Positions 17,807 to 17,942 of a stretch of DNA of 64,000 nucleotides are shown here, piece by piece; the first letter of the stretch is position 1; each line of letters opens with the position of its first letter. Source of the stretch: Moorella thermoacetica (GTDB lineage Bacteria > Bacillota > DSM-521 > Neomoorellales > Neomoorellaceae); assembly GCF_001267405.1 (NCBI RefSeq), contig NZ_CP012369.1, forward strand, positions 1,142,001-1,206,000, given 5' to 3'. Under the pieces are notes generated by a model, which made no database searches, was not told where the DNA came from, and was given only the letters and a program-made list of their open reading frames with translations. A program made the position numbers and the translations under genes.

Positions 17807-17834
17807 GTGGATCACTCCTTCATATAGAGTTTAT

Positions 17835-17904
17835 AAAAAACCAGGCAACCGGCGCGCAGCAACGAAGATATACCTTCGTAGCCGGGCAATTTGCGGTTGC
17901 CTGG
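17835..17904 (-). terminator. Terminator overlapping the purine aptamer
   Basis: On the minus strand CCAGGCAA (17904-17897, the 5' strand of aptamer helix P3) pairs perfectly with TTGCCTGG (17848-17841), followed by TTTTTT. The nested pairs CCGGC/GCCGG and CGAAG/CTTCG lie inside. Forming it would destroy P3 and the P1 3' strand, so ligand binding should prevent termination. Confidence 0.65.
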
Positions 17905-17942
17905 TAGAAACCCCCGGTCCCTATTGCCGGGGATATACGAAG
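17874..17942 (-). promoter_or_regulatory. Purine riboswitch aptamer, guanine class
   Basis: Minus strand. P1 is CTTCGTA/TACGAAG; the conserved core is GTTTCTACC (J2/3), then the P3 region GGCAACCGCAAATTGCC, then CCGGCTACG. The base before TACG in J3/1 is C (the C74 equivalent), the specificity base for guanine/hypoxanthine rather than adenine. It stands directly upstream of the split molybdenum hydroxylase and amidohydrolase genes. Confidence 0.9.

Follow-up and report, generated by a model that had tools for sequence, protein, structure and literature searches.

The window, a 64,000-nucleotide stretch of the Moorella thermoacetica contig NZ_CP012369.1, contains on its reverse strand the genes of a split molybdenum hydroxylase followed by that of an amidohydrolase. 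The N-terminal half of the hydroxylase (17806-16526; Ald_Xan_dh_C and MoCoBD_1) begins at ATG 17806, which is preceded by the Shine-Dalgarno sequence AAGGAG (17820-17815); the list of open reading frames also offers an upstream GTG at 17815. The C-terminal half (16529-15525; MoCoBD_2) overlaps the preceding stop codon by ATGA. This division of the catalytic subunit into two overlapping reading frames is kept in relatives (L063, L075), and no gene for an Fe-S or FAD subunit is found beside it (17806-15525). The amidohydrolase (15528-14203) matches the 5'-deoxyadenosine deaminase model NF005557 with 733 bits. A cobalamin riboswitch (14133-13886, reverse strand; 77.4 bits) is located directly after the operon, ahead of the cobalt-precorrin-6A reductase and cbiM genes.

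Aptamer, terminator and folding of the leader

The leader of this operon, also on the reverse strand, matches the Rfam Purine family (RF00167) at 17960-17859 with a score of 80.5 bits (E 8e-13), the gathering threshold being 37; this is the covariance search that an earlier note on the sequence had called for. The coordinates given there, 17835-17942, run exactly from P1 through the end of the U tract. The Rfam match and a reading of the strand place the P1 5' strand (CUUCGUA) at 17942-17936, where it pairs with the 3' strand UACGAAG (17880-17874), whose ACGAAG is shared with the inner part of the terminator. The P2 hairpin with loop L2 occupies 17932-17911 according to the Rfam match and folding. 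P3 extends over 17903-17883, with 17903-17897 paired to 17889-17883 and a single A.C mismatch (A17902.C17884); its 5' strand doubles as the 5' arm of the terminator. The joining regions are of the guanine-I type, namely an insertion-free J2/3 of 8 nt (GUUUCUAC; 17911-17904), which contains U47 and U51, and a J3/1 of 2 nt. The identities U17935 (22), U17910 (47), U17906 (51) and C17881 (74), the last being the equivalent of the C74 that specifies guanine, are likewise those of guanine-I. The one-nucleotide J2-3 insertion which, with an altered J3-1, marks guanine-II is absent, and U51 is kept where xanthine-II would show U51G with insertions in J2-3 and J3-1; C17881 is incompatible with the adenine class, which has U74. 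The guanine class proposed in the earlier note from the C at the specificity position is thus borne out by C17881, the joining regions and the Rfam score together. The usual, although not defining, guanine-I trait of repression by guanine is not what the architecture predicts here.

The aptamer is followed by an intrinsic terminator (17905-17835) composed of a 12-bp outer stem (17905-17894 with 17851-17840), an inner hairpin (17879-17874 with 17867-17862) and a U6 tract (17840-17835). The arm at 17851-17840 (CGGUUGCCUGGU) pairs without mismatch to 17905-17894 (ACCAGGCAACCG), with the remainder of U6 coming next. This outer 5' strand takes in the 5' side of P3, whose A.C mismatch is replaced by an A-U pair in the terminator; CUUCGU (17867-17862) captures ACGAAG of the P1 3' strand, which constitutes the inner hairpin. 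The perfect pairing of the arm and T6 with the P3 5' strand, as well as the mismatch inside P3, had been recognized previously, but only the last eight bases of the arm were counted rather than all 12 bp. In the window leader the energy of pairing between arm and P3 is -24.3 kcal/mol, against a mean of -14.2 kcal/mol for shuffles, and none of 500 dinucleotide shuffles of the arm does as well (p = 0.002). Neither folding nor inspection of U tracts revealed a second terminator or an antiterminator in the 28 nt that separate ATG 17806 from the U tract. The sole strong terminator of the leader is made from aptamer strands, P1 3' and P3, and operates without an antiterminator, as in pbuE-type ON platforms. 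A weak 5-bp hairpin before the U tract could form beside the intact aptamer and leak termination.

Folding of the full leader gives -52.4 kcal/mol for the terminator and -33.9 kcal/mol for the fold in which the aptamer is enforced, whereas the minimum-energy fold of a transcript ending after P1 is the aptamer. As the transcript lengthens, P1 remains stable until about nt 79 and, without ligand, is gone at about nt 82-88; a ligand bonus of -5 or -9 kcal/mol makes it last to about nt 94-97, the U tract ending at nt 109. The comparison with and without ligand that had been proposed earlier favors the terminator when ligand is absent and prolongs P1 when it is present, and, together with the covariation described below, supports the claim that terminator and ligand-bound aptamer are mutually exclusive. 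A stronger antiterminator, which would have made this an OFF switch, was sought by folding and none was found. The models used are equilibrium models from which kinetic behavior is deduced: once the final bases of the arm have emerged, P1 can hold only kinetically, and since the terminator surpasses the aptamer fold in stability by some 18 kcal/mol, the switch must be a kinetic one. Folding thus predicts a kinetic ON switch resembling that of adenine pbuE, the classical ON purine switch.

Conservation of the arrangement and rival readings

Five Purine matches are present in the same genome and two to five in each of ten other genomes of the genus, and orthologous leaders retain the same arrangement. 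In Moorella the P3 strand GGCAACCG stands opposite the arm CGGUUGCC; in leaders before the same gene in other genera, GGUGACCG stands opposite CGGUCACC. Counted over 17 leaders, 90.4% of the cells formed by the terminator arm and the 5' side of P3 pair, compared with at most 38% when the two are slid by 1-3 columns; in two of the arm-P3 pairs both partners differ, C-G being replaced by U-A and A-U by G-C. Covariation between the terminator arm and P3 extends over Moorella and its relatives. Arm pairing is weaker in some relatives (L004, L011, L074), and the U tract is poor in certain orthologues (L019, group E). The leaders L004 and L005 and their orthologues, found before bmp and xdh, have six bases (CCGGAA), not seven, in L3 and score lower against Rfam (58-65 bits).

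Direction was called throughout the sampled phylum by a rule-based classifier. Within the Moorellaceae it returned 30 ON, seven without a clean U tract, six tandem and no OFF leaders; L079, one of the seven, lies within a gene and is a spurious match to the aptamer. In this family the arms of all single guanine switches found are ON or ON-like, those not called ON failing solely for want of a clean U tract. The Moorella ON switch is part of a family-wide set and not a single case. The remainder of the sampled phylum gave 36 OFF, 49 tandem, 17 none, 13 ON and five mixed calls. Reading of the folds left six of these ON calls convincing (L227, L233, L235, L269, L271, L301), while L015, L223, L288, L316, L317, L321 and L322, in which mostly little beyond the end of P1 overlaps the hairpin, were set aside by eye as doubtful or false. 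L296, overlooked by the classifier, has the same ON layout, which brings the number outside the Moorellaceae to at least seven. The L227 aptamer, of ON layout and located before an azgA-type permease, carries extra J3/1 bases (GCAGGC) and may be a further variant. The PRPP status of tandem leaders was assigned by sequence motif only, and L003 gave no PRPP match at the Rfam gathering threshold. A DNA pattern meant to capture the ON arrangement genome-wide proved too loose: among the first 115 matches only three Moorella loci were riboswitches, and it yields names and no distribution. Matches to this pattern in Moorella records (L105, L140, L150) have leaders identical to some from genomes of the same genus as the window, in keeping with its origin in Moorella.

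Very probably, then, this is a guanine-I riboswitch on a pbuE-like strand-invasion platform that switches transcription ON. In the absence of ligand, RNA transcribed beyond P1 would first pair with the P1 3' strand (ACGAAG with CUUCGU), and invasion would then proceed through J3/1 and P3 and capture the P3 5' strand, closing the long terminator just ahead of U6. With guanine bound, or more weakly hypoxanthine or xanthine, P1 and P3 would withstand invasion until RNA polymerase clears the U tract, and read-through would lead to transcription of the split hydroxylase and amidohydrolase genes. The same arrangement would drive a coherent regulon for purine uptake and breakdown in Moorella and its relatives. 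The aptamer class, the mutually exclusive pairings, their covariation and the gene context are all evident at the level of sequence. The proposal of the earlier note that guanine should turn the operon ON is upheld in prediction by folding, covariation and gene context; ligand binding and the direction taken in practice are what we infer.

Guanine-I switches are mostly OFF (PMC9295807), and outside the Moorellaceae the 36 OFF leaders outnumber the 13 singles that the classifier called ON, from which one might expect an ordinary OFF switch whose bound aptamer promotes termination via an antiterminator/terminator pair further downstream. The interval before the ATG, however, holds no other terminator, so that such a switch would be without hardware; the one strong terminator is built of aptamer strands, and the orthologues preserve the same pairing through compensatory change. 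Folding and a search for other U tracts gave no support to this explanation, which we consider highly improbable. It is also improbable that the leader mostly terminates and switches poorly, with the promoter setting expression and the ligand contributing little. The terminator is indeed far more stable than the aptamer, and the small hairpin adjoining the U tract may terminate regardless, but the strong conservation of both P1 and the aptamer core, seen in every orthologue, would be unexpected if binding were unimportant. An ON switch with xanthine or hypoxanthine as its physiological ligand appears unlikely, though it deserves some weight: the controlled genes are xanthine dehydrogenase-like, and guanine-I aptamers discriminate only about 10-fold against both compounds (PMC9295807), whereas the binding core is that of guanine-I and lacks the U51G and the J2-3 and J3-1 insertions of xanthine-II.

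Genes and promoters of the predicted guanine ON switches

The predicted guanine-responsive ON switch has a counterpart within the window, which the earlier note did not mention. A second Purine aptamer (25576-25475, reverse strand; 81.9 bits) has P3 and P1 3' strands that form a terminator ending in U6, and on this architecture it should also be ON; the gene beneath it encodes a transporter of the Xan_ur_permease family (25343-24006, reverse strand). Elsewhere in the same genome, the genes that follow ON switches are those of a bmp-type nucleoside ABC transporter and of an xdh cluster encoding XdhA (1300 bits; cut-off 916), XdhB-like, XdhC, SsnA, YgfK and carbamate kinase, by family names a purine degradation set. 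Outside the Moorellaceae, ON switches are found before XDH FAD subunits (L269, L271; Pfam FAD_binding_5) and before an XdhA (L296; 75% identity), and homologues of the amidohydrolase lie under ON switches in other families (L301, 69%; L233, 61%); five of the at least seven examples thus precede xanthine dehydrogenase subunits or this same amidohydrolase. Possible exceptions are three loci with weak (24-28%) homology to XDH FAD subunits, the platforms of which are OFF-type or unclassified. The transporters azgA and bmp are mostly under OFF or tandem leaders in other families and under ON leaders in the Moorellaceae. These comparisons agree with the purine-catabolic context suggested earlier for the operon. 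Because the amidohydrolase trails guanine-ON switches in unrelated genera, its substrate is suggested to be guanine or a related purine rather than 5'-deoxyadenosine, and the enzyme may be a purine deaminase, possibly of guanine.

A sigma-70 scan upstream of the switch before the hydroxylase revealed no good promoter. A putative sigma-H-like promoter, AGGAATC-N11-GGAGAAT, is located at 18013-17989 (reverse strand) and fits the published consensus RMAGGRWWW-N11-12-RRMGAAW (PMC4754846) save for a C at the last -35 position. Such promoters, absent from the earlier note, were found before most ON leaders by lining up the relatives: AGGAWTT-N~11-GCGAAT, in agreement with that consensus, lies upstream of 30 of the 36, counted with a slightly looser pattern that 0.9% of shuffles match. 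As a sequence match the copy before the permease switch is imperfect. Among the genes of this genome is a sigma-H orthologue (378 bits), and the strict sigma-H pattern has 15 matches in it, compared with none for the reversed pattern. Several matches precede non-purine genes (mraZ- and fabZ-like open reading frames, identified by eye), which indicates that this promoter type is general and not specific to the purine regulon. Further sigma-H-like matches at 23921-23897 and 50146-50122 (both reverse strand) lie about 50 nt before an M48 peptidase reading frame and one of 832 residues. The tandem purE leaders carry a sigma-A-type TTGACA...TATTAT instead. Sigma-H dependence of the ON leaders is presumed from these matches.

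A wider picture, which we hold with evenly balanced confidence, is a family-wide RNA regulon in which one aptamer class is used oppositely in the same cell: guanine-I in tandem with PRPP would turn purine synthesis off from sigma-A promoters, while at sigma-H promoters guanine-I would switch on the uptake of purines and their anaerobic breakdown. Such a regulon would respond to guanine and the transition state as an AND gate, and its amidohydrolase would be a guanine deaminase. From the arrangement one would expect guanine to induce a purine catabolic regulon in acetogens, and it is of help in assigning genes of uncertain substrate.

Relation to known purine riboswitches

The earlier note held that guanine switches are usually OFF, with pbuE the known ON type. 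The first part stands, guanine-I being described as OFF, but ON behavior has already been described or predicted for guanine-II of Paenibacillus, xanthine-II and a guanosine-type variant (PMC9295807). We found no report of a natural guanine-I ON switch in the open-access literature. The novelty would reside in a known aptamer and a known platform logic in a new combination and regulon, guanine-ON as such being not wholly new. Here the commonest guanine aptamer also occurs, in nature and more than once, in a layout expected to switch genes on. An engineered chimera of the xpt guanine aptamer on the pbuE platform is cited as giving about 14-fold induction in E. coli (in PMC7707468), and the Moorella leaders offer a natural guanine counterpart for studying how the expression platform sets direction.

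The xpt-type guanine-I switches of B. subtilis (OFF) share aptamer class and binding core with the Moorella switch, the logic of which is predicted to be opposite; there is no antiterminator, and the aptamer itself would act as one. Guanine-II of Paenibacillus likewise senses guanine and is predicted to be ON, but has a J2-3 insertion and is found mostly with phosphoribosyltransferase genes (PMC9295807), whereas the joining regions here are plain guanine-I. Xanthine-II is ON before purine degradation genes (allantoinase, XDH; PMC9295807), as predicted here, with a U51G and insertions that the Moorella aptamer lacks. The Moorella guanine aptamer before purE looks like the tandem guanine-PRPP form (PMC5912903), in which guanine turns the genes off; unlike the ON leaders, the purE leader has a sigma-A-type promoter. 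The closest parallel in mechanism is the adenine pbuE switch of B. subtilis, where the terminator invades P1 and P3, ligand blocks the invasion and control is kinetic. A P3 mismatch favors invasion in pbuE-type designs (PMC7707468). Unlike in pbuE, the predicted ligand here is guanine (C74), the A.C mismatch is at the junction end of P3 and not next to L3, and the controlled genes are catabolic.
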